From Bryum argenteum (Eukaryota > Streptophyta > Bryopsida > Bryales > Bryaceae), in the NCBI GenBank assembly GCA_037043015.1, contig CM073327.1:5438727-5502726 (forward strand): a stretch of 64,000 nucleotides of DNA. The letters run 5' to 3'. This document shows, piece by piece, positions 1 to 62,600 of this stretch. Numbering within the stretch: position 1 is the stretch's first letter; each line of letters begins with the position of its first letter. The notes under the pieces are model-generated. The model was not told the DNA's origin. It searched no databases and worked only from the letters and a program-made list of their open reading frames with translations. Made by a program: the position numbers and the translations under genes.

Positions 1-2
1 AC

Positions 3-173
3 CAAGCTTTGAGACTCATCATAAATGGAGATATTCAGGAGTGTGATTATACTTTCACTACCGAGATCTTTGAACGTTGTGGGCATCATTTTAATAGATG
101 CGAAGGTTGCATCTACTGCGAGGTCGAGCAAGAGATCAATCGTCCGGGTGTCAAGGCACAACTGAAGAGCTAG
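3..173 (+). CDS. 3' end of an unidentified Cys-rich protein gene (partial)
   Basis: The frame starting at base 3 stays open for 56 codons to a TAG at 171-173, ending in the residues AQLKS. The fragment is rich in Cys and His (CDY, ERCGHH, NRCEGCIYCEVE), a spacing that could bind a metal, but I do not recognise the family. The gene begins before the window, so neither its start nor its intron structure can be judged. Codon use looks like real coding sequence rather than chance: the reading frame is balanced in composition and stops just before clearly non-coding AT-rich DNA. It could be the last exon of a zinc-finger-type protein; that is only a guess. Confidence 0.5.
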   Translation, partial: QALRLIINGDIQECDYTFTTEIFERCGHHFNRCEGCIYCEVEQEINRPGVKAQLKS

Positions 174-14705: not shown

Positions 14706-15814
14706 GAGCAGTTGCGAGCCTTCAAACCCTCGATACAATCAATCAGGAGTTCCTTACTCCCTCGTCCGCCATAACCAGCCAGTGCCGTTTTGCTCAAATG
14801 ATTGCTTGCAGCATAGGATTCTTCGTCCACTATCACTTCTTCCAAATGTGATCGTCTTTTCCAATGTGATCACATTTGAGCTCCAATTGTTGGCTGTTCT
14901 TGATAAGAACAATCACTGTGTGATTATCATGGAAACTCCAAAGGAGCCCAGCTGATGAGTGAGGGACGACGATGAAGGGTCTTCATTGGACTACTACTAC
15001 TACGGGGTACTAGGGCGGGAGCCAACATGGTGATGGACTTAATTAACTTACTTCCATTTGGAGGGAGTGAAGATTCCAATTTTTTCTTTATTTTGCTTTT
15101 TGAAAAACACCAAAACATTCATGGGGTGAGGTCAGATTCATGTAAGGACATCACTCATTTTTAGGATCTTCGATTCTTGACTTTTTGGCCATGTGGTAGG
15201 ATCCTATTTGGAGGCACAAAGTCATACTTTTTCTAAGTATATTTGTGTGTTGTTTAGGAGAAACGTGATTGAGTTTTGGATGTTTTTAGTGTAATGTGTT
15301 AAGTTTGTTGTCTATTTTTGAATATTTTAGGCTTATAATTCATTTCTAGTTGAATTTTTGTATTTTTGAATGAATGCAATAACTAAAGACGGACAAATAC
15401 ATGTAAAACTTGAAATGTAAGGGTTGTCATTTTTTATTTTCTTGCAATTATCCAAACTTGGATTCTGATTTGAGATTAAGGATTTATACACTTGCATAAT
15501 ATACAATATTTTTTTGGATCAAGTGTATTCTAATTCAGTTCGAACCAATTTGAACATGGATTTTGACTTAAGCAACCTCAATCCTTTGGAATAAATCAAA
15601 TTGTATACAACTCCACCAAGTATAGAAAATGTGAGGGTAACTCTAGGCCGGTACCCAAGGTGTATTGGTCGTTTATCCATCAGTCTACGAGCAACGGGAA
15701 AATGCACCGCTAAAGCTTCTTAGCCATGGCGAATTCCAACAATTTCACGCTCTACTATTTTGTTCACAATGTTAAAGTGAATCAGCGTATTTAGAGTTAA
15801 GTTCAATCTCGACA
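14706..15814. other. 5' flank of SWI3D and AT-rich spacer
   Basis: The first 150 bases should contain the SWI3D promoter and leader. The rest is AT-rich with no supported coding frame. I see no reliable TATA box. Confidence 0.45.
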
Positions 15815-16545
15815 TGTTAGCACGTGAAGGGAGATTGGACCTCTCATTTAAAGTTGAGTCTAATCTCCACATGTTAACATGTGAAGGGAGATTGTACATC
15901 TTAGCACGTGAAGGGAGATTGGACCTCTCATTTAAAGTTACGTCCAGTCTCGGCATATTAGCAGGGGAAGGGAGATTGGACCTCTCAAAGTTGCAATTAA
16001 TTGTCGAATGACACTCAACGAAGGTGGAACATGATAGCGCATAGAAGGTGGAACATGATAGCGCATAGAAGGTGGAACATGATAGCGCATAGAAGGTGGA
16101 ACATGATAGCGCATAGAAGGTGGAACATGATAGCGCATAGAAGGTGGAACATGATAGCGCGTAATCATCCAAACAATTGTCGTCTACTGTTTCAATTTAA
16201 TTGGATGATTTAGCGCATTGCAAAATGGAATTGACTTCGTGTTGTCTTATTCTCATTCTTTATTATGTTCGAATGATTAACTCCTGCCCAACATCGTGCT
16301 CGAGGGCGCAGCATATATTGCTATTGTTGTTTACCGCCCAGTGAAGAAGCTGGACCTCTCATTTAAAGTTAAGTCAAGTCTCGACGTATTAGCACGGGAA
16401 GGGAGATTGGACCTCTCAAAGTTGCAATTATTTATCGAATGACACTCAACAAAGGTGGGACATGTTAGCACGTGAAGAGGGAATGGACCTCTCAAAGTTG
16501 CAATTGATTGTCAAATGACACTCAATGAAGATGGGACATGGTGAA
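15815..16545. repeat. Tandem and dispersed units around a GGGAGATTGGACCTCTCA core
   Basis: At least five related units carry the order GTTAGCACGTGAAG, GGGAGATTGGACCTCTCA and TTTAAAGTTAAGTC. Three or four lie at 15815-16010, and two more at about 16345-16505 after the 24-bp array. Several units contain a CACGTG palindrome, and others have lost it by single changes. The frames across them encode repetitive peptides with no known domain, so I treat this as non-coding. Confidence 0.75.
16021..16164. repeat. Six tandem copies of a 24-bp unit
   Basis: The unit is AAGGTGGAACATGATAGCGC plus ATAG. Copies start at 16021, 16045, 16069, 16093, 16117 and 16141. The first five are identical and the last differs only in its final bases. 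Since 24 is a multiple of three, all six frames stay open, which explains the spurious ORFs here. Confidence 0.97.
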
Positions 16546-22107: not shown

Positions 22108-25100
22108 ATGGCATCTGTCAAACGATCAAGGGAGGAAGCAAACAAGAAGGGAGAATATCTCATTTCTTATCCTGAAGGTTGGTACGAAGAACATCCAGGT
22201 GCATTCCCAGTTGATGCGGTTATTGTGAGCAATGAGAAATTGGGGGATATACCCCGGCAACGGGCTGCTGGTGACAGACAAAGGATGAATCAGCTCTTCA
22301 AAGCGCTCGGTTTTCGCGTCACTATTATGCGAGATAAGAGCGCAGATGAATTGAGAGCCGACTTGAAGACCTTCTCTAGCAGCACAGAATCGTTATTCAA
22401 GAAGGATGTTACAAATTGCTTCGTATGCTTTATAAGTGCATACGGTGATACCCAGATCGATGGCCGTCTGTTCATTCTTGATCATAAAGGTAACAAAATT
22501 TACGTTATGGAGGATATCGTTGAACCATTTAAGTCATGTAAGGTCTTGGATGGAAAGCCCAAAGTATTCTTCATCAATACCATCTGGAAGTGCGACTGGC
22601 ACACTTTGCAACTCGAAGCAGGAGAAGTGTCCACCAGCTTCTCGGACACAAAAGTGAAACGTTCGGTGCAGTCTAGGGACCTACTGGAGGTATTTTCAAC
22701 AGAGCAAGAAAAGCTTGATGAGCCACATGAGACATATTATATCCAGGCACTTATCGATTCGCTTCATCAGAACCACAACGCCAAAGATGTAGGGGACATT
22801 GCCAATCAGGCCAACCGCTGGCAGAGTGCATCAGTCCAGAGCACGTTGAACCACAAACTTTTCTGGAGAACAAACAGGCTCGGAGATGTACCTGGTGCGT
22901 CAATCTCTTCCTTTTCGTTCTGCCTTCTTTTATTTAGAAACATGTTTTCACTGCACCTAAATGGCGTCAATGTGCAATAGCTCAGCAGCAATTGGCCATG
23001 TTTTCCAGCCATGCATTTCGTGATAAAAGTCATAGCTTTCTAGAGAGCCGTTTTTGAAGAAAGTTGATATAGAATCAAACAGACTAGATTACAGAGGATA
23101 TATTTGGCTGGAGATTGATGAGCATAATGCCGTGCAGGGATAGTGCTGCCACCTGACCAAGATGGCGAGCGAATGCTATTAGTCTACAGAACACCAGATG
23201 AAGCTCCAGAGCTGGATGTAGTCCTATTTCATGGCTACGAGTTCGGTGGCCGAGGGCAGCATCCTGTAGCCCTATCCTCTTGGTTTTCAAGACCTGCGAA
23301 ACCGGTCTGTTGGCCTGTTGAGTGGTTGCCGAGTGCATTGGATGGCATTCCAATGCGGGTGTTTTGCATGAAGTATTCCGATTCTATTGAAAACCCTGAG
23401 CCATGCTCAAGTAAGCGGACCTTGAAAGAGCTGGCAGAGCAGGTGCGGAAGGATCTCGGTCAGCTGGCTTCAAGGCCATTGATATTCATAGCGCACGGTC
23501 TGGGAGGTCTACTTCTACAAGAACTTCTGAACAGTAAGGACGAGTCCGTTCAATGCGTTAAGAAATGGCTAAAAGGAATTGTATTTTACGGGGTGCCATA
23601 CGATTTAAGTCCACGAGCCAAGAACTTCTCTCTCCCCGCTTTAGAGAATGCATTGAAACAGGACGATGGGTATCTATCTGTTGTGAGGAACTCAGACGTT
23701 GAAGGGGATTCGAATTTCGAAGGAGCACGCAAACATTTCTGCAGAGAGTACAAGGAAATAACCCTGTCATTTGAGGAAGGAAATGAAACATATGGTTCTG
23801 TAAGTTCTTTCTTCTAGCCACAGCCTGCTTGGCTTACGTGCAGATTTTTATATAGTTGAGATGGGGGTTTTCGCAGTTGATTTTAGTAGTGCCTTCTAGA
23901 TACAAACTTGCCGGACTTTAAGGATGTATGTCCTCGTTTCCTTAGCTGGTTCTTAATGCTGACGGGGCATTGCATTGTTTGTACTCACTTCTTATTTTTA
24001 ACGGTTTTTTTTCATTTTATTTGTTCTTTTCGATGCAGAAAATAAATTTGATAGCGGCACAGCAGTATGCTACGCAGGTGAACACGATTGCAGATAGCTG
24101 TTCAGCGTGCAATCATTTTGACATATGTAGACCGAAAACTCGGAATGAGGACACTGGTATATTTTCGGGGTTGTTGCGCTTCATCAGGAAGCAACTTCGC
24201 AATTGTGGTATGTTACACTGATTCTGAATGGGAAGTCTGATAGCTCTAATGATGCGAAATAATGCTGTGCTATAATTTGAATAAGACGTCTTAGACTGTG
24301 GGAATATCCAAAGTTCAATTACTCGACTTATCTTTGCTTCTCGTTGATCTACTTACTACGGCTAATGCGAGACATTTTTTAATACAGTTTGTAGCTGCTC
24401 ACGTTTAAGAATCTGTGAAGAGTGGTGCACGAAGATTTGTAGCAGAAATATTACGTTGGAGATTAGTTGTGACCATTCTAACCCGGCTAATATACATGGT
24501 ATCGGTACAATCTCGCAGAACGGGCAGACATTATTGTTGGACAGGATGGCCACTTTAAGAAACTCAGGAACTGGCTGTTATCAAGGGATACGACGGCTGC
24601 ATCAGTTGCTGGGATAACAGGGGGTGAGACATTTGGTGTTGCTGGAGTGGGTGGGATAGGGAAGACCACACTGGCCAAGTCATTGCTGGAAGACGTAGAA
24701 ATCAAAACTTACTACGACTATCGAGTCTATTGGATTGCTATCAAACGAGTACCGAACATTATCGAGTGTCAACGAAGCTTGCTCTCAGAGATCTGCAATG
24801 AGATGCCTTCGGTGAAATTAGACTCCGAGAAGCTTTTGCAAGCGGAACTCAAGCGAAAATGCTCCAAACTAAGGAGTGTGCTACTTTTCTTAGACGATGT
24901 TTGGGAGAAGGACCACGTGGACAGACTGTTGGGAGACTCCTTCATCAAAGTCTTCCCTCCAGGGAGCAAGTGTGTCATCACCAGCAGAAAACCTGTAGAG
25001 CTCGCAAAACTGGATACAGTTGAGCAGATTGAAAAACTCGATGTTCTTAACGACGAGGATGCGACAACGTTGTTCTGTTCCAAGGCTTTCTTAAGCGGAA

Positions 25101-27061
25101 AAATGCCAACGGTTAACGACTTGAGGGTTGTTGTGGAACAAGTTATTGCTGCTTGTGGCAATATGCCAATCGTGCTCGCAACCATTGGTGCCAGCCTTTG
25201 GAGTACACGTGATATCAAGTCGTGGGAGGAAGTTCGAGATAGACTGAAAAGCATCACGGGTAAAAGCATGAGTGAGGACGACATATATCAGAACCTGATC
25301 AAGCAAGTGAGGATCAGCTATGATGACCTCCCTGTGAGAGATCCCGTATCTGGCGAAGGAATCGACTTCAAGGACTACTTTCTGGACTTCGCGGTATTTC
25401 CCTACAAGGAGGAGATTGAAATTGCCGTGCTCATGGACATGTGGACGAAACCAGGGGTGACAGAAGATGGGGCGTACAGGATACTTGAGGAGCTGGAGCA
25501 AAGGTCTATGGTGAAAATTGTTGGTTACTGGTGCTATGTGCACGACATCATCCGAACCCTCGCCGTGGGGCTGATTGAAGAGCAGCCTCTAAATAAGAGG
25601 AAAAGGTTGTTCGCGTGGGGACTGGAGAACAGCCTACCAGAAGCGTGGAAAATCTCCAGATCGCCGGTCATTTTTGAGACTGAGAAGATGGTGATAGCGA
25701 AGAGTAATCTGGAACAGTTTCTTCCGAGGGATGCTACCCTTTTCAAGCACTTAACGCAGATGCGTACGCTGATTCTGACGTCAAACCTGAATCTGGTGTC
25801 ACTTCCTCCAGAAATAAAGTACATGAGAAGTTTGGCGAAGCTGGATTTGAGTTGGTGTTTAGGTTTGAAGCAGTTGCCGGAAGAGATTGGAGAACTCGAC
25901 AGCCTTGAGAAGCTGAACATGGCCGGGTGCTGCTCCCTCGCTGGACTCCCTCTCTCGATTGGGAAACTAAATAAACTGATGGAATTGAACATGCAAAGCT
26001 GTGGGATACAGTACCTGCCTGACGAGATTGGAGAGCTCGCGAACCTGACGTGTCTGTGCCTGAACGACTGCAACCAGCTTCAAGAACTTCCCGACGCATT
26101 GGGAAAGCTGAGCAGCTTGGAGAAGCTGGATTGTGATGTACTTAACATATCGGTGATACCGAAAGCTTTAGGGAACCTCTCGTCCTTGAAGCACCTTTCG
26201 TTCGGTGCATGCGGTGGCATCACCGAGATTCCTGTAGAGTTTGTGAAGCTAACGAATCTCGTGTGCTTGTGGTTCGTGAATTCTCGAAACTTGAGAGTTT
26301 TACCGGACGAGCTGGACAAGTTGGCGGCAGCAGAGGGAAGCCTGAGAGTGTTTAACGTGTACAATACAAGTATAAGGAGGAAGAACCTACCGCCTAACCT
26401 TCGTGCCCTGCCAGTACCTTTCAACGGCACCATACAAGACGATGAAGTCGACTCAACGGCGGACGATCTTGATGGGCCATACTGGACGCACAGGCGAGGT
26501 ATGCTCGTGAACACAACGTCTCTTTATGATCCCAGCAACAAGGAGCAAAGACGTTCTTCCTTTGGGATTGTCAGAGTGGTAACCTTGGCGAAGAACGAGC
26601 CTTTTCTGAGCCCACGTTTCGTTATGGCCATTCGGATCCTGTTTACCATGAGCAACTACAAGCAAACGAGGCACGCCATTGTGAGATCGGGTGGTGTTCC
26701 CGTCCTTCTCCGTTGCATCGACACGGGCGAGGATTATAATTGTGCTCAATATGCGGCAGCCACACTTGCTAACATGTGTGTTACACCATCTACACACAAA
26801 GCAATCGTGGATACACCTCAGGGTCTCGATATTCTCACGCGAGCTTTGCATCGAAAGGATCACGTGGCTGATTGCGCCTTTCAATGCTTGCTTTGGATTC
26901 GAGAAGGGGATGAGATTGACAATGACTGGACTTATCACTCGGAGACGTTGGAAAAATGTGGGCACACCGATGGTCATCCAGGTTGCGCCTGTATCTGGTG
27001 CCAGCACTGGTTCAACTTTAATTATAAGGTGCCGTTTCTCGAGGTCGAAAACGTTTTCTGA
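22108..27061 (+). CDS. NLR immune receptor: pseudo-caspase, alpha/beta hydrolase, NB-ARC, LRR, ARM-like repeats
   Basis: Four exons (22108-22894, 23138-23799, 24039-24207, 24519-27061) join in phase to 1,386 codons; all junctions are GT-AG. Residues 35-255 form a caspase fold: the p20 strand FVCFISAYGD (105-114), KPKVFFINTIWK (150-161), and a p10-like ETYYIQALIDSL with STLNHKLFW. At the catalytic positions Tyr112 replaces His and Ile159 replaces Cys. Residues 265-483 are an alpha/beta hydrolase (VVLFHG, then IFIAHGLGG with Gly383 at the nucleophile, then KGIVFYGVPY). A Cys-containing linker follows. The NB-ARC has a P-loop (GVGGIGKTT, ~582-590), kinase-2 (LLFLDDVW, ~661-668), a GLPL-equivalent GNMPI (~753-757) and VHD (~880-882). 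LRRs run about 940-1145, ARM-like repeats about 1210-1335, and a Cys/His-rich tail follows (CGHTDGHPGCACIWC). NB-ARC proteins are nucleotide-driven immune switches; the N-terminal domains would be the output or bait modules. Hydrolase-NB-LRR proteins are known in bryophytes; the caspase addition is not familiar to me. Confidence 0.9.
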
Positions 27062-33368: not shown

Positions 33369-33742
33369 TTTAGTTGTAATGTATTCCTGCTTGTACATTA
33401 CCGTCAGAAGTTTGACAACTTCATACTAGCATCAATGTGTCATGCATTACATGAATGACACACACACAAGGAAAATGTGAGCAAGAGAGACTATTCCATT
33501 ATTCATGAAAGTAAAGTAGAACAGGCTTCATACATAATGTACTTGATAGATACTCAGTCACTCTGCAACTATTCTGCTCACTGATTCTTAACTGATCTCG
33601 CTTCAGTGTCGCTGGGAGAGATAATCACACACAGGACAGGAATGAAGCTATATACTCTGCATTGAGGAATAAGCAAGAAAGAGGTTCTTGCTGTGATGTC
33701 ATCCTCATACCGTATACTCAGTCGTATTCTGTACCTACAACA
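33369..33742 (-). repeat. Copia 3' LTR
   Basis: It starts (minus strand) TGTTGTAGGTACAG and ends ATTACAACTAAA. The end is set by the CGTAC duplication at 33364-33368 rather than by a CA dinucleotide. Confidence 0.9.
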
Positions 33743-35261
33743 CTCCCACTCGTGATGATGATGGAGAATCAATTGCAGTGTCTGTAAGACCAAGCAAACC
33801 CTTCATGCGTTGAAACTTGTCACGTGGCAGGGCTTTAGTAAGCACATCAGCAATTTGATCAGCAGTGTTGATGTAAGTAATTTGAAGCTCCCCATTTGCC
33901 TCAGCTTCTCGAAGTTTGTGAAACTTGACATCAATATGTTTGGTTCTGCGATGGAATTCGGGATTCTTCACCAGTCTGATGGCAGCTTGATTATCAGAAT
34001 ACAAGACAATTGGATGTGCTTGGGGGCAGCAAAGATCAGCAAGAAGGCGACGCATCCATATCACCTCTTGGGAGCACAAGTGAGCAGCAACATACTCAGC
34101 TTCGGTAGTGCTCGTCGCAGTGCAGGTTTGCTTGCGGCTTCCCCAAGCAATGGGTCCACTATTCAGGACTAATACATAGCCCGATCGAGACTTTCTATCA
34201 TCAACATCCGCAGCGTAGTCGGCATCACAGTAAGCGATAAGCTCATGGTTGAACGAAGATTGAGCGCTGTAAGTGATACGCAAACCTGAAGAGCCACGTA
34301 AGTACTTGAGAATGCGACGTAGGGCTCCAACGTGAGATACCTTTGGATGGGAGTTGAATTTGCCAGCATGACTAGTGGCATACGTGATGTCCAACCGGGT
34401 GCCTTGACTTGCAAATTGAAGACTCCCGACACAGCTGCTGTAAGGAAAATCGGTGAGAGCATCACTTTCACTTGAATGATAATCAGATGAGCTATGCGGA
34501 TCAGCAGGAACCGCGACGGAAGTCGCATCATGAAAACCATAACGCGCAAGAAGGCGCTCAACATAACGCTTCTGATCAAGTTGCATGGTTTTGGTGAAGC
34601 GATCCCTTGTCAGATGGAGTCCGACATACATTTCAGGGTGGCCTTCGGTGATGCTGAAGGCACCTTTAATCTCTCCCAAGATGTTGGTGATGCGGTGAGG
34701 ATCCACGCAACAAGCAATACCGTCGTCAACAAAAATGCATAAGATCAGTGTGGGCTTGGCGCTGCTGACATAGACACAAGAATCTGCTGATGAAGGAATC
34801 AACTGATGAGATGTGAGAAAGGCATCGAAAGTGCGATTCCACACTCGAGAGGACTGCTTTAGTCCATAAAGTGCCTTGACCAATCGACACACTTGGTGAG
34901 GGCGTTGTGCATCAATGAACCCAGGTGGCTGCTCCAAGTAAATTTCTGCATCGATTTCGCCATAAAGAAATGCAGTGCGTACATCAAACTGAACGACTTC
35001 CATGTTTTCTACTGTAGCAATAGACAGAATAGCGCGAATGGAGTCAAACTTGACGACTGGACTAAATGTCTCTGTATAATCCAATCCTTCCTTTTGGGTG
35101 AAACCTTTTGCGACCAAGCGTGCTTTATAGCGAACCACTGAACCATCCGAGCCCAACTTTAACTTGTATACCCACTTTGATCGCACTACTTTGCGTCCAG
35201 GCGGGAGGTCCTGTAACACCCACGTACCATTCGCAATGAGTGAGTCATATTCGTCTTGCAT
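33735..35261 (-). pseudogene. pol: Copia reverse transcriptase and RNase H
   Basis: This open block of 508 codons begins MQDEYDSLIANGTW, the usual N-terminal part of copia RT. Visible motifs are VRSKWVYKLK, KARLVAKGFTQ, the QFDVRTAFLYG block, and FVDDG in place of the usual YVDD. The RNase H part has YCDADYA, ATSTTEAEYVA, YSDNQAAI and RRTKHIDVKFH. The block itself is intact, but an in-frame stop at 35292-35294 separates it from the upstream connecting region (35292-35744), so the polyprotein cannot be made without readthrough. Its stop codon lies inside the 3' LTR. Confidence 0.9.
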
Positions 35262-35792
35262 AGCTACAAGCCATGCGGTAGAATCAGTCGACTAAAGAGC
35301 CTCATCGAGTGTCGCAGGTTCTGGTAATACGCAAGGCATTGTCGTAGCTGCATTGCAAGTGTAACTGCCTTTCAAGACAGGAGTAACCCACTCTCCAAAA
35401 CGCTCCGGAGGATGTCGATCACGTCCGTCACGGCCAGTTGGTATGATCAGAGGGTTGGTTTCAAACGTGGAATCACTGCTTGGTAAGGTGCTGGTAGTTG
35501 TATTAATATCATTCCATGATGCAAAGCTATGTTGACCGTGATCACCGGTAACTTGGTCGTCATCAGAGGCAATGCTGCATGGCTCAATTTCAGCTAGTGG
35601 TGACGTTATGACCTCGGTACTTTCGGGAATCTCATGCAGAAGGAGATTGACGTCAATTTCTCCCACTGGTGCGCCACCATGTGGAGCTGGAGAATCATGA
35701 AGCAGATCAAGAGATGTGATTGGCATGATATCTAGGCATGACACATGCGTAACTGACTCTACAATAGATTTGGAACTACTATCAAGACTGAG

Positions 35793-36498
35793 CTAATCAA
35801 ATACGACGTGGCAACTCTCAATAATTCGTCTTGATTCGTTGTCCCACAGACGGTAGGCCTTGCTCGTCTCACTATATCCCATCAGAATACACTTCTTGCT
35901 CTTACGGTCCAGTTTGGATCGTAGTTGTATAGAAACATGTACATATGCATCAGCTCCAAAAACCCTCACGTGAGCAACTGAAGGTTTCACATTGTACCAG
36001 ACTTGATACGGTGTTAACGAATCAAGCATTCGAGTACCTGTTCGATTCAATAAGTACACAGCTGTGTGCACAGCTTCCCCCCAAAACTTGGGATGCACGT
36101 CACTCGACCAAATCATGCTTCTGGTTGCTTCAAGAATGGTACGATTATCCCGCTCAGCTACTCCATTTTGTTCAGGTGAGTATGGAACGGTGGTTTCATG
36201 ATGAATATTCTTGCGTAACAAGAACTCCTGGAACAAGTGATTGGTGAACTCCGTACCATTGTCAGAGCGTAAGGTCTTCACGATCTGATTGGTCACGCTC
36301 CAACTTTGCACAAAAACGTTGCATGCACTCAAGAGCCGCAGTTTTAACTTTGATGCAGTAGATGACCCGAAAACCAGAGTGATCATCTTTAAACAATGCA
36401 AAATACTTCGCACCTCCAATTGTAGCAGTATTGATCGGTCCACACAAATCACAGTGCACCAAACTACCAATTGATTATGTTTTCTGTCGATGTTCTTT
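35793..36498 (-). pseudogene. pol: Copia integrase (frame-shifted)
   Basis: The catalytic core is split between frames. The first part (36262-36462) contains MVHCDLCGPI and KDDHSGFRV. The second contains LRSDNGTEF and PYSPEQNGVAERDNRTI, which carries the catalytic Glu. The C-terminal end includes VWYNVKPSVAHVRVFGADAY and GYSETSKAYRLWD. At least one frameshift divides the core, and an in-frame stop near 35793 ends it. Confidence 0.88.
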
Positions 36499-38048
36499 CT
36501 AGGGAAAGACAGATCGGTGGCTCTTACCGTAAGCACATCCCGCACAAAAAGATGCACTATTCTCAGTGATCACAAGGCCATCAACCATTTTCTTCTTTTC
36601 CATGTGTTGGATCATTTGATGATGTAAATGGCCCAATCTCTTGTGCCAGATATCAAGACTTTGTTTGCTGTCTTTCAGAGCCGGCACTCCAATTACTGCA
36701 GCAGAGAAGGCTGCCTCGATGTAGCTTGCAGGTGGTGGAACAACGCTCATGAGTAATCGATAAACGCCATATTCTTCAACTCCCTTCATGACAATTTGTG
36801 CTCCTATTGTTAATGTACAGCCTTTCAGATGATGGAGAACCTCAATGCCGCGTTGTACACCTCGTGAAGTAGAGAAAAGATTTCGCCCAAGGTTGGAAAC
36901 ATGTACCACATCCTTGAGAATGTTCAAAGTTTCATGACCATCAATCAATGCTTTGAACATGATATCACCAATTCCTTGAGCATATAGCATCACTCCTCCA
37001 ATGCCTTCAACAAGCTGGTGTTGAGAAGAGATATCTTTGTATAGAGTGAACCACTCACGGTGTTCAGTCATGTGTTGGGAGCAACAACTATCAAGGTACC
37101 AGTTGTTGGAGTAGGCGCCTGGTGATGATGCCATGAAGGCTCGATGAATATGCTCCGTAGTGGCCGTTGGATCTGTCTTCTTGTCTTTATCATTTTTCTT
37201 CTCGTTTGTGCACTCCTTGCTCCAATGTCCTATCTCTCCACACTTAAAGCAGGTTGTGGTCTTCTTTTTCTCTGCAATTTCTCGCTTGCGTTGTTCTCGT
37301 TCTTCTGGTGTTCTTGTGGACATTCTTTGCTTGAAACCGGCTGCGTAGGCTGTGACAGTCCCGAGCTTGGAAGCTGAACGAGCATCTGTATCTCGTATGC
37401 GTGACTCTTCTCGAAGAAGTCGAGTCGTCATGGCTCTCATGGTCTTTTCAGTGTCTGGAACATTGTCCCATGCAGACTGGAAAGGTGCATACGAGCTTGG
37501 TAACTGACTAAGTATTTTCGCCATCACTGTCCGTTCGGAAAATGTAGAGTCTCCAAGATTGGTCAGTTCACAAATGGTTGCTTCAATCTTGCCAAGAAGA
37601 TCGGCGATGGTATCACCACTCTCCATCGATATGTCAAAGAAGCGTTGCTGTACATGCAACACAGTCTCCTGTGATCGCTGATCATGATATTCCTTGAGTT
37701 TGTCCCAAATCGCCTTCGAACTCTTGCATGTCATGACATTGCGTAGAATCTTCTCTTCTACGGCTTGACACAAGAAACCGATTGCTTGGCTATCCTTCTT
37801 CACCCACAATGCAAGTTCCGCGGTTGCAGCTGGATCTGGCTTCGAAAACGTTCATCCACGACATCCATGATCTCTCTTCCAAGAAAGAAAGCCCGCATTT
37901 GGAAGTGCCACATGTGAAAATTCTCTCCAGAAAACATTCTGATGTTTCCCAGCATATACTCCTTCGTCTCACCCATGGTTGCAAAGCTCCAAGAGTAAAC
38001 GGGTGACAAGTCAAAGAAAGAAAGAAACGGTGTAATTCGTCTGCACAC
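36499..38048 (-). pseudogene. gag: Copia gag and protease
   Basis: The gag start lies in one frame (MLGNIRMFSGENFHMWHFQM, about 37820-37980) and continues after a frameshift near 37805 with QAIGFLCQAVEEKI. A CCHC knuckle is present (CFKCGEIGHWSKEC). The protease has WYLDSCCSQHMT, where the family normally has Asp-Ser-Gly; here the Gly is Cys. The pre-integrase zinc domain is visible (WHKRLGHLHHQ ... CAGCAYGKSHR). Confidence 0.88.
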
Positions 38049-38566: not shown

Positions 38567-39862
38567 TCACGGGAGAAGTGTAATTGTTCCATCCTCGGCT
38601 CCATCCTTGGCTTTATCCATGCCTCCATCCTCGGCTCCATCCTTGGCTTTATCCATGCCTCCATCCTGATGCAAGAGTTGAAAAAATCGACGCTCTTCAC
38701 GAAGCGTGAGGAACCTGGCGAGACTGGCACGTTCTGCTTGGGGGAGACTCGGCAATCTAGGCTGATTCATGATACTGCGAGAATATAGGCCCCTCGGTGA
38801 ACCTGCTTCCGCCTTGAGCCGTTTAGAGGTGAACACATTGATGCAAGGAAAGTGGGAAGCTTTCCTCTCGTTGAGCCTTACTTTCTGTCGGAGAGCGGTG
38901 GAGTAGTCGACCAGCCATAACCGGATCTCCTCAAACCCGGGTCTCTTTGAAGGTTTTCGGTGCCAGCACTGTTCAATGAGCTCGATCAAGCGCTGATCCA
39001 CACTCTGCGGGAGCTTGGGCCTCACTCCTCGGGCCGCCAGATCAGCAATATCTACTTTCCTCACATCCTCGAAAGGGACACACCCTGACAGAATCTCATA
39101 GCATGTCATGGCAAAGGTGTAAACATCTGCCTTGACAGTGTAAAAATCATTGGGTCTCCAAGTAGAGGCCTCAGGAGCACGGTAGTAAACCGTCCCCACA
39201 TGACGACCATTGCTCGATGATGACACTTCTGGCGCTGCATAACCACTCGTCCCTACCACGCCCTGGAAGTGCTTCGTTCTCGCGAACTCCTCCGAGTTTT
39301 TGGACGGGTCCCGCTTCACCATCATCGACACACCGAAGTCTGTGATCTTTACTGTGCGATATCCGCCACTGTGATCACAAGGTACAAGTATGTTGGAGGC
39401 TTTCAAATCGCCATGGAAAATCCTCTGTTCATGCAAGTACTCCATCCCTGCCGCGATCTGTTCCAGGATGTACACAGCCTCTCGCTCAGTAAATGGTAAT
39501 TTTCTCCATTTCTTTGCTAATCGCTTGTTCATGCGATGACGGAGGTCGCCGTCCAGAAGCTCCATCAGAATCATGCACCGGCTTGGATCCCCGACGGTGT
39601 CCACAGAAAATCCTATGCAACGAATGATGTTGGGATGATCCAGCTTGGACAAAATGGCGACCTCCCTCTGAATGGCGCGAACGTCGGTAGTTTCAACAAC
39701 TTTGGCTGCACAAGCTTGACCGCGCCAGATTGCCTTGTGCACTGTCGAGAAGCCGCCGCGTCCGATCTGCTCGCCGATTTGAATGTCTGATGCTGGAATT
39801 CTGAATGATTCAGGCAATTCTTCATCAACTTGCATACTTTGGGACTTCCAGGGGATGGCCAT
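38567..39862 (-). CDS. Single-exon protein kinase with non-RD catalytic loop (TKL/RLCK-like)
   Basis: A 431-codon uninterrupted frame. The kinase domain spans about residues 28-320. It shows the Gly-rich loop IGRGGFSTVHKA (33-44), the catalytic Lys in CAAKVVE (Lys54), Glu67 in QREVAIL, and the catalytic loop HGDLKASN (150-157). DFG is at 175-177, and the C-lobe has KADVYTFAMTCYEILSG and the Arg in KRPGFEEI. The loop is HGD rather than HRD, a non-RD form often seen in immune-type plant kinases. The segment before helix F holds two APE-like motifs, SGYAAPE and YYRAPE, 20 residues apart, which is unusual. The C-terminus carries two 12-residue repeats (GGMDKAKDGAED). No signal peptide or membrane segment is seen, so it is probably cytoplasmic. 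A copia element lies 64 bp beyond the stop. The closest subfamily is not certain. Confidence 0.87.
   Translation of the reverse strand: MAIPWKSQSMQVDEELPESFRIPASDIQIGEQIGRGGFSTVHKAIWRGQACAAKVVETTDVRAIQREVAILSKLDHPNIIRCIGFSVDTVGDPSRCMILMELLDGDLRHRMNKRLAKKWRKLPFTEREAVYILEQIAAGMEYLHEQRIFHGDLKASNILVPCDHSGGYRTVKITDFGVSMMVKRDPSKNSEEFARTKHFQGVVGTSGYAAPEVSSSSNGRHVGTVYYRAPEASTWRPNDFYTVKADVYTFAMTCYEILSGCVPFEDVRKVDIADLAARGVRPKLPQSVDQRLIELIEQCWHRKPSKRPGFEEIRLWLVDYSTALRQKVRLNERKASHFPCINVFTSKRLKAEAGSPRGLYSRSIMNQPRLPSLPQAERASLARFLTLREERRFFQLLHQDGGMDKAKDGAEDGGMDKAKDGAEDGTITLLP
38590..38666. repeat. Two tandem 36-bp units in the kinase 3' coding end
   Basis: The unit beginning CATCCTCGGCTCCATCCTTG starts at 38590 and again at 38626. 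It encodes the repeated acidic/basic 12-residue block at the kinase C-terminus without shifting the frame. Confidence 0.92.
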
Positions 39863-42547
39863 CGTCGAAGACCTGCTTGTGAACTAATACTGAACCCGTA
39901 TCTGTCGAGTGCACATGCAAATCGAAAAGAAATCTGTCTGTTGTAACCAAACCTGCAAACAAGATGTGCATCCCTCAAACCCCCACTTTCACAACAGACT
40001 TCGTTTCCATCTGCATGAAGAGTTTAGACTACGAAGAGCTAGAAGAGTCTGTCTGAAAGCAAAGCATGTCCCTCACGAGTTCCAAGCACGCCACTGCACC
40101 TCATTGTCAATCATCAAGTATCGGTAAGGTGAACATTATGAACCATATCCGTTTAAAATACATGTTTGGCCAAGGAAGTCGTTGAGGTACTTTGGTTTAC
40201 ACTACCTTGAAAAAAGGAGATGTCCCATAGAGTTTGAGGTTACCTACTAGACACTACCTTGATTGAAGAAGATTGATCTCGGGGTTGAGATAACCATATG
40301 AATAAATTAGATTTTGTCATGTGGATAATGTTTCTTGGTCTAATGAGTTCTTGATGGAATTGAGGAAAAATAATCAACTTAGATAGTGGGAGCTTCACAC
40401 TTCAGACCATGAATATGATTGAACCTTGGCCCTATAAAATTTGTGATTGATTAAAAAAATTTGACCTTGCTTTAAACTTCCTTGGAAGAAAGTGACTAAC
40501 CAAGAAGTTTGAGGCCATCATAATATGCTAAATTATGCTAAGTGGATAAGGTGCCTTTGTCCAACTTATTATCTCTTGGGTCAAGGCATGATTTTCCACG
40601 TTCACACAAATAATTGTTACCTCAAATTAATCAATCATTGAGTTTATGTCTTGTACTTCAAAACTATTGTAATTCTCACACTACAAAACCAACACTGAAC
40701 TCTATACACAAAGGTTGGATTCCTAGCCATGACAAGTATTTATAAAAAAAGTGAAGGTAGTTCATATGTACCACCTCATTGTTGCAAAGGATGCGTGTAG
40801 TTGTACTGACAATAAGTTCAAGAGGTTTTGTTTTGAGGTTATTTGATGCAAGGGCATTGATTGCATTGAGCACAACCACGCAGCACAAGGCTCCAAAAGT
40901 TTCGAGGTCATTTCAAGGTAAGAAATCTGTCATAGAAATGCACACGCAATTTGGTAACAAGGCAATTGCGAAAATCATTCAACATGATTTGGATGAAGGG
41001 CAAAAACTTTGAAGAGCCATAGCTTTTTCATCCCAAGTCAAGTTTGGATGAACACATTGATTGGGTCGCAAATCAAGTTTGCTTTGTCTGGTAAAAAATT
41101 TAAACCCATACATTAAAGTATGAATAAATGGCATGCATTTTAGTGAATGCAACTCTTGTTTTTGAGTTTTCAAACATGGGGCATGTTTTACCATTGTAAG
41201 GCAATTATGGGAAATCAAAAGATATTTTTATGTTTATATATATAATTTTTATTTTTTTACATAATTATGATCTAAAGATGAAGGGTAACAACTTTCCCTA
41301 AGGCTCAATCAAGAACTTTCAGTATTAGAAAATTTTAATATCATCTCATTCTCCTAGTTTGACTTTTATATGCGAATTGTTCTCATACATTTGTCGGAAT
41401 TTGCTCAAATGTGATTAAACTAAAGAAATCTCTAAATCCAACAAAACTGAGATTTTATTTTTATTTTTTATTTTTTTAAAAATTTTTCTTTAGAAAATTA
41501 CAAATATGTAGCAGAGAATGTTCTCGTAGTGCAAAATGTCAATATAATATTTTCACATGCCACCATGAAGTTTGAAGGCTTCTTTTCATGCTCCAAGAAA
41601 GAAAATGGTACTCAAATGGCTGATTCTACACCAAAAAAAAAAAAAAAAAAAAAAATTAAAAAATATTAATTTTCTAAAAAAATAAAAAATAATTCATAAG
41701 TTATATTATTAGAAAGTATATATTGATATTTAAGAACCCATATTTAACTCAAACATAAGTCTATGGAACTTCAATTCTTAGAATATACTACACTAAGAAT
41801 TATATTTGATATTAAATGACGAATAGTGTATTTACCTCAATCATGTTCATAACACTATTTGTCAAAATGTGTACAATTAGTGTAGTAGGGCCACTACTTC
41901 TCAATGGCAACCTCTTTTCAGGCTGTCACCTTCCTTTGGCAAGCAACACACTTATCTAATCTTTTCCATGCCTCTTCCATAAACCCAACCCTAATTTCTT
42001 TCATCGTTGTACTTGGAGGTATCCAGTTCAAGCCTCTCCGTGTCCGCCTTCTGCAATGTTTTAAAATCTAACACTTAATGTCATCTTTATGATTTTCCTA
42101 TTCTTCAAAATTTAATTTTGTTCACAATTGGTGTTGCAATTGACGATTAGAGTTACAACAATCCTACCCTTGGTGTTGTTGTTTGTATTTTGTGTTGGCC
42201 ACACTAAACATAATTTTTAGTGTCCCTATTTTGACAATCAAGTATGAACTCCCCTATTGAATCTTTATAAAACATTCATCAAACTATATAACCTCTTTTT
42301 TTTAAAACCATTTTCTGACGGCAGGGCCTCTACCTCGTGAAGTTTTTACAGATACGAATATTGAGATTCACTATGATCAATTTGGCGAGGATTGGTGGAG
42401 ATGGTCGACGACCTGTACAACACCAAGTGGGTACCATCCCCTTCGACAAGGGTTTAGGGTTTAACGCTCATCAGGTCCGCGCAACTCTCCTCGCCCTGTG
42501 CGTTCCATCAATCAATGCTGTGGCCATCGTGACGATCGTCAGGCACC
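39863..42547. other. AT-rich spacer with degenerate repeats
   Basis: The first few hundred bases should contain the kinase promoter. The rest holds the repeat at 40970-41222, poly-A/T runs (for example 41632-41656) and no supported gene. Confidence 0.5.
40970..41222. repeat. Dispersed repeat, related to 31990-32270
   Basis: Same orientation and word order as the copy at 31990 (AAGTATGAATAAATGG, ATGCATTTTAGT, ATGGGGCATGTTTTAC), with moderate divergence. Confidence 0.65.
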
Positions 42548-54270: not shown

Positions 54271-54857
54271 CTCGCGGGATACTATCGTCGTTTTGTTCGG
54301 CAGTTTGCGCACATTGCTGCTCCTCTGACAAATCTATTGGAGAAGGGCGCTCCATTTGAGTGGAAACTACAACAACAAGGCGCTTTCAATAATTTGAAGG
54401 AGGCACTCACTCTCGCTCCACCCCGCAACCATATGATCCTGACCTTCCGTGTACGGTTGACATTGACGCCTCCGACTTTGCTATAGGCGCGGTCCTCCAA
54501 CAAGACTTCGGTAGGGGCCTTCAACCGGTGGCATATGAGTCACGCAAACATAAGAGGGCAGAGCGCAATTATTCTGCACGTGATCGGGAACAACTAGCAA
54601 TTGTACATGCTACCAAAGTATGGCGGCACTATCTATTGGGGAAACCTGTGACAATTCGGACTGATCATCGGCCCTTACTACATGATCTGCATTTAGAAAA
54701 TATGAAATCGAGACACCACCGCTGGGAAGAACAGTTGCAGCTGTTTGATATTCAACTTCAGTACAAGCAAGGGCGACAACATATTGTGCCAGACGCTTTA
54801 TCTCGGAGACCAGATCTCAAATCAATCGGAGGACACGAGGGAGATTGCTACCATTAG
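54244..54857 (+). pseudogene. pol: Gypsy RNase H
   Basis: It begins KVRSFLGLAGYYRRFVRQFA, passes a frame break near 54460-54530, then continues ESRKHKRAERNYSARDREQL and IRTDHRPLLHDL, ending at the GRQHIVPDALSRRPD boundary to integrase. Confidence 0.9.
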
Positions 54858-54859
54858 TA

Positions 54860-55850
54860 GTATTGTTCCGGATCTAACCAGAGGGAGAGAATGGAAGGAA
54901 GCCACCTACCAGGATGCTTACTTCACAATGGTGACTGATCGAGTAGAGGTAGGTGATGTGCAATATCAAGATTACAACTTCGTTGACGGCCTCCTCTATT
55001 TTAAGAAGCGGGTTTATGTACCTAACGATGCTAAACTTCGAACCCGCATACTTCAAGAAGGGCATGACATTCCTATCTCTGGACATCTCGGACGTGAGAA
55101 GACCTTAGAACGGATTTCTAGAACATGGTTTTGGGTAGGCTTGGATCGTGATGTTCGAGCTTTTGTGCATTCCTGTGAGCTATGCCAACGGAACAAGGAA
55201 CGCAATACTGCACCTCTTGGACTGCTGCAGCCGATTCCACTACCTACGGTACGATGGGAACAAGTAACCATGGATCTCATTACTTGTTTGCCGCAGACGC
55301 ATTGTAATCACACTGCGGTTGCTGTCTTTGTGGACCGCCTTTCGAAGCAAATTCATTTGGCTGCGGTACGCTCCGATATTGATGCCCCAACACTTGCACG
55401 AGTCTTCTTCGACACTGTCTTCCGTCATCATGGATTGCATCGTGTCATTATCTCAGATCGGGATCCGCGCTTCACAGGGAGTTTCTGGCAAGCACTATTC
55501 AAGCTTCTCGGCACACGACTTGCGATGTCCATGCCTTTCATCCTCGGGACCGATGGATGACAGAGCGTGCTAACCGGACCTTGGAGGATATATCTTTGCG
55601 GGCGTTTGTGGCAATTCACCACAACGACCGGATGAGTATCGACCCCTTTGAGTTCGCCTATAATGATAGTTCCCAAGCAAGCACGGGTCATTCACCATTC
55701 TTTTTCTTAACGCTGGTCAAGACCGATTACGCTGGCAACGCTCCACCGCCCCATCAACACCAACAACCCTACAACGGAGGAGTTTATACAACGACTAACA
55801 TCGGGGTTGCAAGAGGCTCGACAATGCTCTCATCGCACATTTAATCGACA
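54860..55850 (+). pseudogene. pol: Gypsy integrase
   Basis: The zinc domain reads GHLGREKTLERISRTWFWVG and SCELCQRNK. The core has TMDLITCLP, VDRLSKQIHL and ISDRDPRFTGSFW, and the Glu-bearing block TERANRTLED lies in a shifted frame after a stop at 55558. Confidence 0.9.
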
Positions 55851-59669: not shown

Positions 59670-62600
59670 TTAATGATCATCAATACTGCAGCTTTTTGCA
59701 TCTTCTTTCAAAGCCAATGTTGAATTTTCACAAAATGGTTTTGAAAGGTCAAAATAATCTTCTGGCTCAAAAGAACCTCTTGACTTTGCCATTTGAATTC
59801 CTCCAAATTTCTGATAAGAATGATTAATATGTTATAAAGAGAATTGAAAGTGGTCAATAATTCTCTTCACTTCAAAGAAAATAGATAATTATATAGTAGT
59901 ATCTACTATCTAGTCATATTTAAGACAACCATTATATTACCATTTCTAGTGACCCTTTTTAGAATTATTTAATAAAATTTAACATGAAAATCTGGCAAAC
60001 ATGATAAAGTTGGAAAAACTATGAACTCACCTCCACACTCAGAGAATTCTCCAAGATTCTCATATTTTGAGGCATTAAATGAGTATTACCATCTTGTACA
60101 ACTTTCCATTGGCCAAGTTCATAGGTTGGGGTACATGATGTTGGTATACTTCTTGTACTAGAACTACAATGAGCAGGTCATATGTTATTGTATCAATTAC
60201 CTTCTTATATATAGAAGATGAAAAAGTATTCTAAATAACAAAAAAATATAGAATCTATTTTTATATCTATAACAAGTACCTACATAGAGGTATCATAGTT
60301 GTTATAATAGTTTATATGGGAAGCACTTCTTACAATTAAAGCTAGAAATGTAACCCTACGGTGTGGGCCCTTTCTGTGGGTCTTAGAAAATTATCATGCA
60401 TATTATATAACGCATATTATATAACTATAGTACCAAAATAAATGAAGTAATAAAACTTCATATCACCAATAGGAAGTAATGTATTGGTCACAAGTCTCTC
60501 TATATAAGGGCCCAATTGGCTTATGCATATGTATTGGAAATTTCAAAACTAATTAGAATTGCAACATTACTACCTGTTATGAGAGATATTAGCATTGGTC
60601 TTGAATAGTCCATTTTCCGTGTAAGTATAAGGAATAACATATTGTAAGTTGGACATAATAGGAATATCTCTTTCACTATTAGAAACTGTGATTGGAGATT
60701 CAATACAAGTGTCGGCATTAGTACTAATCTCTTGAGCTGAAGTCTTCGCATCCAATAGTGACTTACTATCAGTCTCTATTTGTTGTGGTTTATTTACCAA
60801 AGGTTCATTCTTGGAATAAATACTATTCTCTTGAGCTGAAGTCTTGGCATCCAATAGTGACTTACTATCAGTCTCTATTTGTTGTGGTTTATTCACCAAG
60901 GGTTCATTCTTGGAATGAATACTATTCACTTTAGCTGAAGTCTTGGCATCCAATAGTGACTTACTATTAGTCTCTATTTGTTGTGGTTTATTCACCAAAT
61001 GTTCATTCTTGGAATGAATACTATTCTCTTGAGCTGAATTCTTGGCATCCAATAGTGACTTACTATTAGTCTCTATTTGTTGTGGTTTATTCACCAAAGT
61101 TTCATTCTTCGAATATGTAATATTCTCTTGAGCTAAAAACTTGGCATGCATTAGTGACTTATTGTTAGTTTCTATTTGATGTTGTTCGTTCAACAAAGTT
61201 TCGTTCCCGCACTTCCATTCACCACTAGCAATTATTTGCGTTGATGAAGGTTTATCTTGATTTACTAATGCAACATTAGTGAAAGTGTTTGTTGATTCCA
61301 TAACTCTTTCTGGTAATTGAACATAGTGAATTAAACACTCAATTACATTTTTATCCACATCGGATTGTCCATTTTCACTTTCATTAGGTGTTGATGATGC
61401 TTTTGTGATTTTCGATACTTCTGCAACAATAAAGTCAGACAAGCTTGTTTAGTGATAATCTAACTTGTATTTTTCTTGAATTGTTGGATCCCCAAAATAT
61501 GACACTATGTTTTATAAACTTAAACTTTTATAAGGAGCTGATGAGATACATTGGTCGGAAGGATGTATTATGTGTTTGCTATTGATAGTAGGAAATTTTA
61601 AAATCTCTATTATTAGTCTCAAAATTTGAACATGAAAATGTTTACGAATATACAATTTTATGCAATTGTCTCACGTGGCTGTAATGACACAATAATCTCT
61701 GTCAATGTATAGTTATAGGCAATCATATGTCATTACAATCTTGTTATTATGAAGTTTATACTAGAGCACTAACTTCTAGCATAAATTGAATAATTTTAAC
61801 AACACATCTCATTTTGTCACTATTTACTAAAGTAAAATAAGACTTCTAGAAAGTGAATGAAGTAGTCTCGTATTAGCACAGTTAGAAATTATTAGTATGT
61901 ACATGCTTCTTCATTAGTTTGACATTGACTTCTTGATTTCTAAACGTTTGATTGCCAACTTTGTGCATACATAAGCGCATAGTGGACAAACAAAATAGAA
62001 TGAAATAAAAGGTCAAGCGTTAAGACCTGAAATAATATAGCATCTCCAATCATAGAATTTAATCCAAACGCACCAAAAGGCAACTTTTTAGATAAGTCTT
62101 GTTTCAATTGAACACCTAAGATCTTTGCTTTGTCAATTAGCATCTTTTCCAATGTAAATATCTCAACACCCATATGATGAAATTGAATCTACAAAACCAA
62201 TTACATACTTCTTCTTAGCTTGCTTAGTATCTACTTAACAAGGTTTTATGAAGTCATGAAAGTAATATAAAGAGATTTGCATATGGTAATCATAATAATG
62301 AATAATCATTCAATAAAAGATCAAGTAGATCTAGGCAAGCTCTTCACAATAGAATTTTTAAGAATTACAACAAGCTCTGTAACAAAATTATATTACTAGA
62401 AGAATGTATACTTTAAATCTTTTGGAGAAAAATATTGCAAATTGTGATATTTAGAAAAAATGGGACATCAATAAAGTTTTCTAAACTATGATTTCATATA
62501 GGAAAGAAATGTAGAAATATACATTAATTGCAAGGAATGGTGGAAATGTAAGAATCGCATGGAATTTATCGCTACTTACAAGTGTAAATTTTCTAATAAA

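Follow-up and report, generated by a model that had tools for sequence, protein, structure and literature searches.

A predicted NLR of the moss Bryum argenteum with a catalytically dead animal-type caspase domain, and a linked paralogue that retains the active site

Gene G1 of Bryum argenteum is predicted to encode a plant NLR with a catalytically dead animal-type caspase domain at its N-terminus, followed by a hydrolase-like domain. A linked paralogue, G2, encodes an NLR whose caspase domain retains the catalytic residues. That these domains are caspases of the animal type is near certain. A sequence-only reading had described the dead domain of G1; the finding is stronger than that reading stated, with live and dead members of the family side by side.

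The gene model of G1 comprises four exons, with GT/AG at all junctions and an unbroken frame of 1386 amino acids. Its features in the window (the whole 64,000-nucleotide stretch of DNA that was analyzed) are as follows.

22108..22894, + strand: G1 exon 1, with the start codon and the whole caspase-type p20+p10 domain, a predicted pseudo-enzyme
22441..22443, + strand: codon of Tyr112, which replaces the catalytic His (SAYG) in the alignment of 24 family members
22579..22584, + strand: codons of Thr158-Ile159, the place of the missing catalytic Cys of N[AS]CRG in the alignment
22895..23137, + strand: G1 intron 1, whose retention would add 28 residues and a stop ending at 22980
23138..23799, + strand: G1 exon 2, the hydrolase-like segment
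23497-23499, + strand: Gly codon of exon 2 at the presumed position of the nucleophile Ser, from a by-eye comparison with GHSFGG
24039..24207, + strand: G1 exon 3, a linker and the end of the hydrolase-like region, placed by splice sites and the continuous frame
24519..27061, + strand: G1 exon 4, with NB-ARC, LRR and ARM up to the stop codon
24629..25327, + strand: G1 NB-ARC domain, from Pfam

In exon 4, Pfam detected NB-ARC (E 4.9e-28), LRR_14 (E 2e-23) and Arm (E 5.7e-6), and the NB-ARC region contains the motifs GIGKTT, GNMP and VHD. Both G1 and G2 possess an NB-ARC domain with a P-loop and an MHD-type motif, followed by an LRR, which is the arrangement of plant NLRs. In both proteins, an Arm-type region and then a Cys/His-rich tail lie 3' of the LRR (G1, 26640-27058; G2, L013 4990-5397). 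The tail reads CGHTDGHPGCACIWCQHW in G1 and CGHHFNRCEGCIYC in G2, and these residues perhaps form a small metal-binding site.

The sequence-only reading had proposed a complete animal-type caspase fold at 22108-22894, and the fold searches bear this out. Pfam matched the region to Peptidase_C14 (E 7.4e-17), and caspases accounted for 60 of the 60 matches listed in a PDB sequence search with the domain and for 50 of the 50 listed by Foldseek with its predicted structure; the profile search described below likewise places the domain among the caspases. PADLOC returned no match with the G1 domain (P0001) or the G2 domain (P0002) as the query, and nothing exceeded the NCBIfam thresholds (P0002 scored 18.8 bits against caspase_w_EACC1, for which the cut-off is 140).

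Enzymes of the C14A family possess a catalytic His and Cys. In G1 the His is replaced by Tyr112 and the Cys is absent; P0001, P0003 and P0004 have no residue in the Cys column of the alignment. The substitution of the His, the loss of the Cys at Ile159 and the consequent naming of a pseudo-caspase had all been read from G1 by itself, and each agrees with the family alignment, which further shows that the S1 arginine of p10 is absent in 11/11 members of the G1 clade. The exon 1 domain is thus predicted to be a pseudo-caspase and no peptidase. As for the use of such a module in an NLR, we infer, as the earlier reading did, a role as output or bait.

The segment downstream of the caspase exon resembles a hydrolase. 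Pfam gave no match below E 0.3 for it, and a PDB sequence search with it was uninformative; the moss genome itself contains a relative at C4:23703889, which matches part of exon 2 (E 3.5e-5, 32% identity). The sequence GHSFGG is located in the frame next downstream of this relative, outside the part matched to exon 2, and the nucleophile-elbow place of G1, compared by eye, reads AHGLGG. Therefore, the hydrolase-like enzyme of G1 also looks dead, and a domain without its nucleophile would possibly be a second dead enzyme in one NLR. The NB-ARC match closest to the genomic hydrolase relative is approximately 540 kb away, and no NB-ARC was recognized by eye in the plus-strand frames of at least 110 amino acids directly downstream of it. 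Atypical enzyme-like N-termini on NB-ARC-LRR proteins are described for bryophytes in the HNL (alpha/beta-hydrolase) and PNL (kinase) NLRs (PMC3352924, PMC11218826). G1 differs from both in the caspase domain in front and the Arm repeat after the LRR. The rule given for the HNL class is a phase-0 intron between hydrolase and NBS (PMC3352924), whereas the intron of G1 just before the NB-ARC is in phase 1.

Across the genome (258.8 Mb, 25 contigs), the caspase domain has only one second copy, 35% identical and on the same contig. This is G2, a predicted gene of 1078 amino acids.

G000:C7:5435349-5438899, + strand: G2, the live caspase-NB-ARC-LRR-ARM paralogue (predicted gene model)
5435511-5436288, + strand: G2 caspase exon, upstream of the window
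window 1..173, + strand: last bases and stop codon of G2

The three exons of G2 comprise a bare ATG, the caspase domain and NB-ARC-LRR-ARM, with GT/AG junctions and an unbroken frame; the ATG-only first exon is the least certain part of this model. The caspase exons of G1 and G2 have the same end point, in phase 1. The G2 domain has the p20+p10 fold and retains the catalytic His and Cys and both arginines of the Asp (S1) pocket, as expected of C14A. Its Pfam match has an E value of 5.6e-31, and its PDB match to caspase-3 (6wi4, E 4.1e-14) aligns the His and Cys. The two genes are on the same strand; the approximately 21.9 kb that separate them contain SWIRM and DEAD-box genes. They are also related beyond the caspase domain: a search with the NB-ARC-LRR-ARM part of G1 found G2 with 1009.9 bits and 60% identity, and the next place scored 133.5 bits in a genome with at least 126 NB-ARC matches. 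Ten Peptidase_C14 matches were found in the genome; two are G1 and G2, and the other eight derive from six loci, which carry the metacaspase motifs SGHG and D[SA]CHSG in the frames read. G2 is most likely an NLR with a built-in caspase, and G1 its pseudo-caspase partner or sensor.

Relatives were collected with P0001 (6 matches), with P0002 (12 matches) and with a 20-row profile (53 matches). Twenty-two of them, with the G1 and G2 domains, constitute a family of 24. The protein searches were confined to sequences whose length was 0.55-1.75 times that of the query; therefore, annotated full-length NLRs could not appear. For this family, we assigned the S1-arginine and dyad roles from caspase-3, which we assume to hold. 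The copies with both His and Cys that the sequence-only reading had suggested looking for do exist: 13 members, G2 included, form a live, G2-type group with the p20 S1 Arg, the His and the Cys each in 13/13, and with the p10 S1 Arg in 12/12 members with letters at this position (P0019 lacks the stretch). Textbook caspase motifs are SHG and QACXG; those of the live group are AHG and N[AS]CRG, and the two letters that differ are non-catalytic. The dead, G1-type clade has Tyr for His in 11/11, the p20 Arg in 8/11, the Cys in 8/11 and the p10 S1 Arg in 0/11, the loss in P0021 being alignment-dependent because an Arg is located one place from the column. In P0001 and the two members closest to it (P0003 and P0004), the Cys is missing in addition to the His.

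An unrooted tree of the family and the animal caspases was built from 41 of 55 rows, without P0019 and 13 of the animal sequences. In it, the dead clade is a single branch (support 100/99), and the His was therefore probably lost once; the live group forms one branch with a support of only 65/84. Comparison of the segments, in which P0019 was left out, showed that most catalytic segments are less alike within the dead clade; the Cys strand is 69.3% identical in dead and 94.1% in live members. The C-terminal strand, which we take to be the dimer strand of animal caspases, is 73.1% identical in dead (n=11) and 70.5% in live (n=12) members. P0002, P0019 and the members added later (P0021-P0024) are absent from alignment A3, for the model of P0001; alignment A4, for the model of P0009, also lacks P0001. 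The longest contig listed is 30,696 bases for both P0008 (dead) and P0011 (live). This shared figure hints, without proof, that a live/dead pair is linked elsewhere too, with P0008 and P0011 perhaps on one contig.

The known system closest in logic is c-FLIP(L) and caspase-8. CFLAR and CASP8 are in the same chromosomal region and the CFLAR product heterodimerizes with caspase-8 (PMC7586951). Here too, as with c-FLIP(L), a dead paralogue is situated near a live one, with the fold kept and the His and Cys sites not catalytic (PMC7586951). The comparison with c-FLIP had already been drawn from G1, and it gains strength from the linked live G2, which was not known at the time. The two dead proteins differ in that the His and Cys positions of FLIP are occupied by Arg and Tyr, whereas G1 has Tyr and no Cys, and in that FLIP is fused to DEDs and G1 to an NB-ARC. 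In the Apaf-1/CED-4 apoptosome, an NB-ARC ATPase acts with a separate caspase-9 or CED-3, recruited via CARDs. G1 and G2 share with it the combination of an NB-ARC ATPase and a caspase, but place both in a single polypeptide. Compared with animal C14A caspases (caspase-3/6/7/8/9), the family has the same whole p20+p10 fold, as predicted, and in its live group the same His-Cys dyad and both S1 arginines; it differs in its place within a plant NLR, its one-exon domain, its AHG and N[AS]CRG motifs and its gene models, which are devoid of DED or CARD.

We propose, with a probability of roughly 0.55, that the dead-caspase NLR G1 tunes or triggers the linked live G2 in the manner of c-FLIP(L). The proposal builds on the observed domains, catalytic residues, family split and linkage, and on the predicted fold. 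Animal initiator caspases are activated by being gathered into proximity, a task carried out by NB-ARC proteins, Apaf-1 among them. Sensing of a pathogen by the LRR/ARM part or by the dead domains of G1 would lead to NB-ARC oligomerization, and the oligomer would gather the caspase domains of G2 and activate them by induced proximity. Active G2 would then cleave after Asp, resulting in defence or cell death. G1, in which the active site is gone but the fold, the NB-ARC and the last strand are retained, would enter through its caspase dimer surface and tune or trigger G2, as c-FLIP(L) does caspase-8. The joint transcripts, the activity, the heterodimer and the immune role are presumed in this scheme; for the heterodimer of G1 with a live caspase, the one point in favour is the conserved C-terminal strand. 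Classic NLR pairs are head-to-head, and the separation of G1 and G2 by the SWIRM and DEAD-box genes, in the same orientation, is against reading them as a pair. Other points against the proposal are the two deviating motif letters, the single-sequence searches, which gave family members only, the support of 65/84 for the live group and the alignment-dependent p10 Arg loss in P0021.

The main rival, which we consider unlikely but deserving of attention, is that G1 is an integrated decoy: its dead caspase and dead hydrolase would bait effectors that attack the live counterparts, and binding would switch G1 on, a dimer with G2 not being required. Both enzyme-like parts of G1 seem stripped of catalytic residues but retain the fold, and the NB-ARC persists, as would be the case for baits; integrated domains are widespread in plant NLRs, including those of mosses (PMC4759884, PMC5067614). 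However, the dead caspase of G1 is placed at the extreme N-terminus, as is the live homologue in G2, and the C-terminal strand is still conserved across the dead clade. The extreme N-terminus of an NLR is the usual output position. It is improbable that exon 1 is a decaying, functionless relic with a drifting domain. The additional Cys loss in P0001, P0003 and P0004 and the lower likeness of most catalytic segments would fit such decay, but all 11 dead members have open frames, the Tyr at the His position is fixed in 11/11, and the mean pairwise identity over the domain is 57.0% for the 11 dead rows versus 54.6% for the 12 live rows (again without P0019).

Slightly less credible still is that exon 1 is a gene of its own, a free-standing pseudo-caspase, with the NLR beginning further on. 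The 28 open residues beyond the donor and the similar tails of P0003 and P0005 look as if a retained-intron form were made; however, the GT/AG junctions are exact and in phase, and in G2 the caspase exon, whose donor has the same phase, is followed directly by the NB-ARC exon. If intron 1 is read through (22895-22980), the added residues are GASISSFSFCLLLFRNMFSLHLNGVNVQ, then a stop. A partial resemblance to this tail is also found in P0021; P0004, P0006, P0007, P0008 and P0022 stop near the donor, and P0023 and P0024 have different tails. The tail may belong to a short retained-intron form of G1, in which the pseudo-caspase would stand free and carry a hydrophobic extension.

Profiles separated the family from metacaspases, in accordance with the animal-type assignment of the sequence-only reading. 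A profile of 25 of the 31 animal rows matched 24/24 family members, none with an E value above 6.3e-16 (live 13/13, 70.6-139.4 bits; dead 11/11, 60.8-88.2 bits), and a metacaspase profile from the six loci pieced together from this genome matched 0/24. The animal profile hit 2/6 of these metacaspases, at E 260 and 450, and the live and dead family profiles each found 25/25 animal rows and 0/6 metacaspases. The animal rows are the closest relatives of the family by choice, because the family profile itself found them. Of the 5.77 billion proteins searched with the family profile, 6683 were scored as candidates. The matches outside the family numbered 31: 27 come from named animals and mostly bear the name caspase, and another four resemble animal caspases; no metacaspase was among the matches. 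Single-sequence searches with P0001 or P0002 returned family members only, and animal proteins were reached only via the profile. Against the PDB, the family profile matched caspase-6 across almost all of the domain (E 2.5e-27), and the best 60 of 237 matches were all caspases. The C14B features of metacaspases, overall similarity and the SGHG and D[SA]CHSG motifs, were not found in the family.

Plants do possess metacaspases, and the substituted dyad seen most often in bacterial pseudo-orthocaspases is Tyr-Ser (PMC6426788). Even so, it is very improbable that the domain diverged from a plant metacaspase or a bacterial orthocaspase, and we reject that origin on the profile results and on the N[AS]CRG motif and S1 arginines of the live group in place of D[SA]CHSG, with weaker support from a prokaryote genome scan with two short peptide patterns, which had limited reach and gave no relative.

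Contamination with animal DNA was rejected because both copies are on an 18.7-Mb contig, in frame with NB-ARC-LRR exons; the interval between the copies contains the SWIRM and DEAD-box genes, and G1 is followed by a cytochrome b561 frame. A viral carrier was also rejected, a scan of viral contigs with two short peptide patterns having given no relative. The one-exon domain, the animal relatives and the lack of a prokaryotic relative in the pattern scan together suggest that the caspase domain was transferred from an animal into a plant; an old eukaryotic C14A gene lost elsewhere is a possible alternative origin. We do not claim that the family is nearest to caspase-8 because the caspase tree is unrooted, has no alignable outgroup and contains animal rows picked by the family profile. 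The widest reading is that some plants have a working Asp-specific animal-type caspase, gained horizontally and built into an NLR as sensor, apoptosome and executioner, with a linked pseudo-caspase NLR regulator that repeats caspase-8/c-FLIP; we hold it tentatively, at rather less than even odds.

Fusions of similar logic are known in bacteria, which have metacaspase-NACHT proteins (15 sequences), two metacaspase-NB-ARC fusions (PMC3501461) and NLR-related proteins with caspase domains (PMC10952240). They share with G1 and G2 a caspase-like protease and a STAND ATPase, but are prokaryotic, and the pattern scan gave no sequence relative there. For plant NLR N-termini, one survey names TIR, CC, RPW8, Cbl-N, hydrolase and kinase types (PMC11218826), and the mixed-lineage-kinase domain is added in a 2026 review (PMC12856790). 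Another review of 2026 states that caspases are absent from plants (PMC13157962). In the available open-licence literature, we found no plant caspase-NLR; NLR tables in supplements, which are outside this scope, may list the domain.

The remainder of the window contains a protein kinase frame at 38567-39883 (- strand; Pkinase E 2.1e-50), kinase N-termini being a known moss NLR type. Retrotransposon remains occupy 33735-37851 (- strand), with RVT_2 at 33738-35291 and frames that appear gag/integrase-like by eye at 35793-37851 (- strand), and 54706-55560 (+ strand), with Integrase_H2C2 at 54706-55557. Open frames of repeated peptides, with units such as NKPQQIETNSKSLLDAKTSAQEN and YALSCSTF, are located at 60570-61448 and 15720-16196 (both - strand). 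An Rfam scan of the 64-kb window gave no match.

The presence of caspase domains at the N-termini of NLRs, with intact active-site residues in one group, provides a concrete gene for testing Asp-directed caspase cleavage in plant immune death. The linked dead paralogue is a natural case for the evolution of a pseudo-protease regulator.
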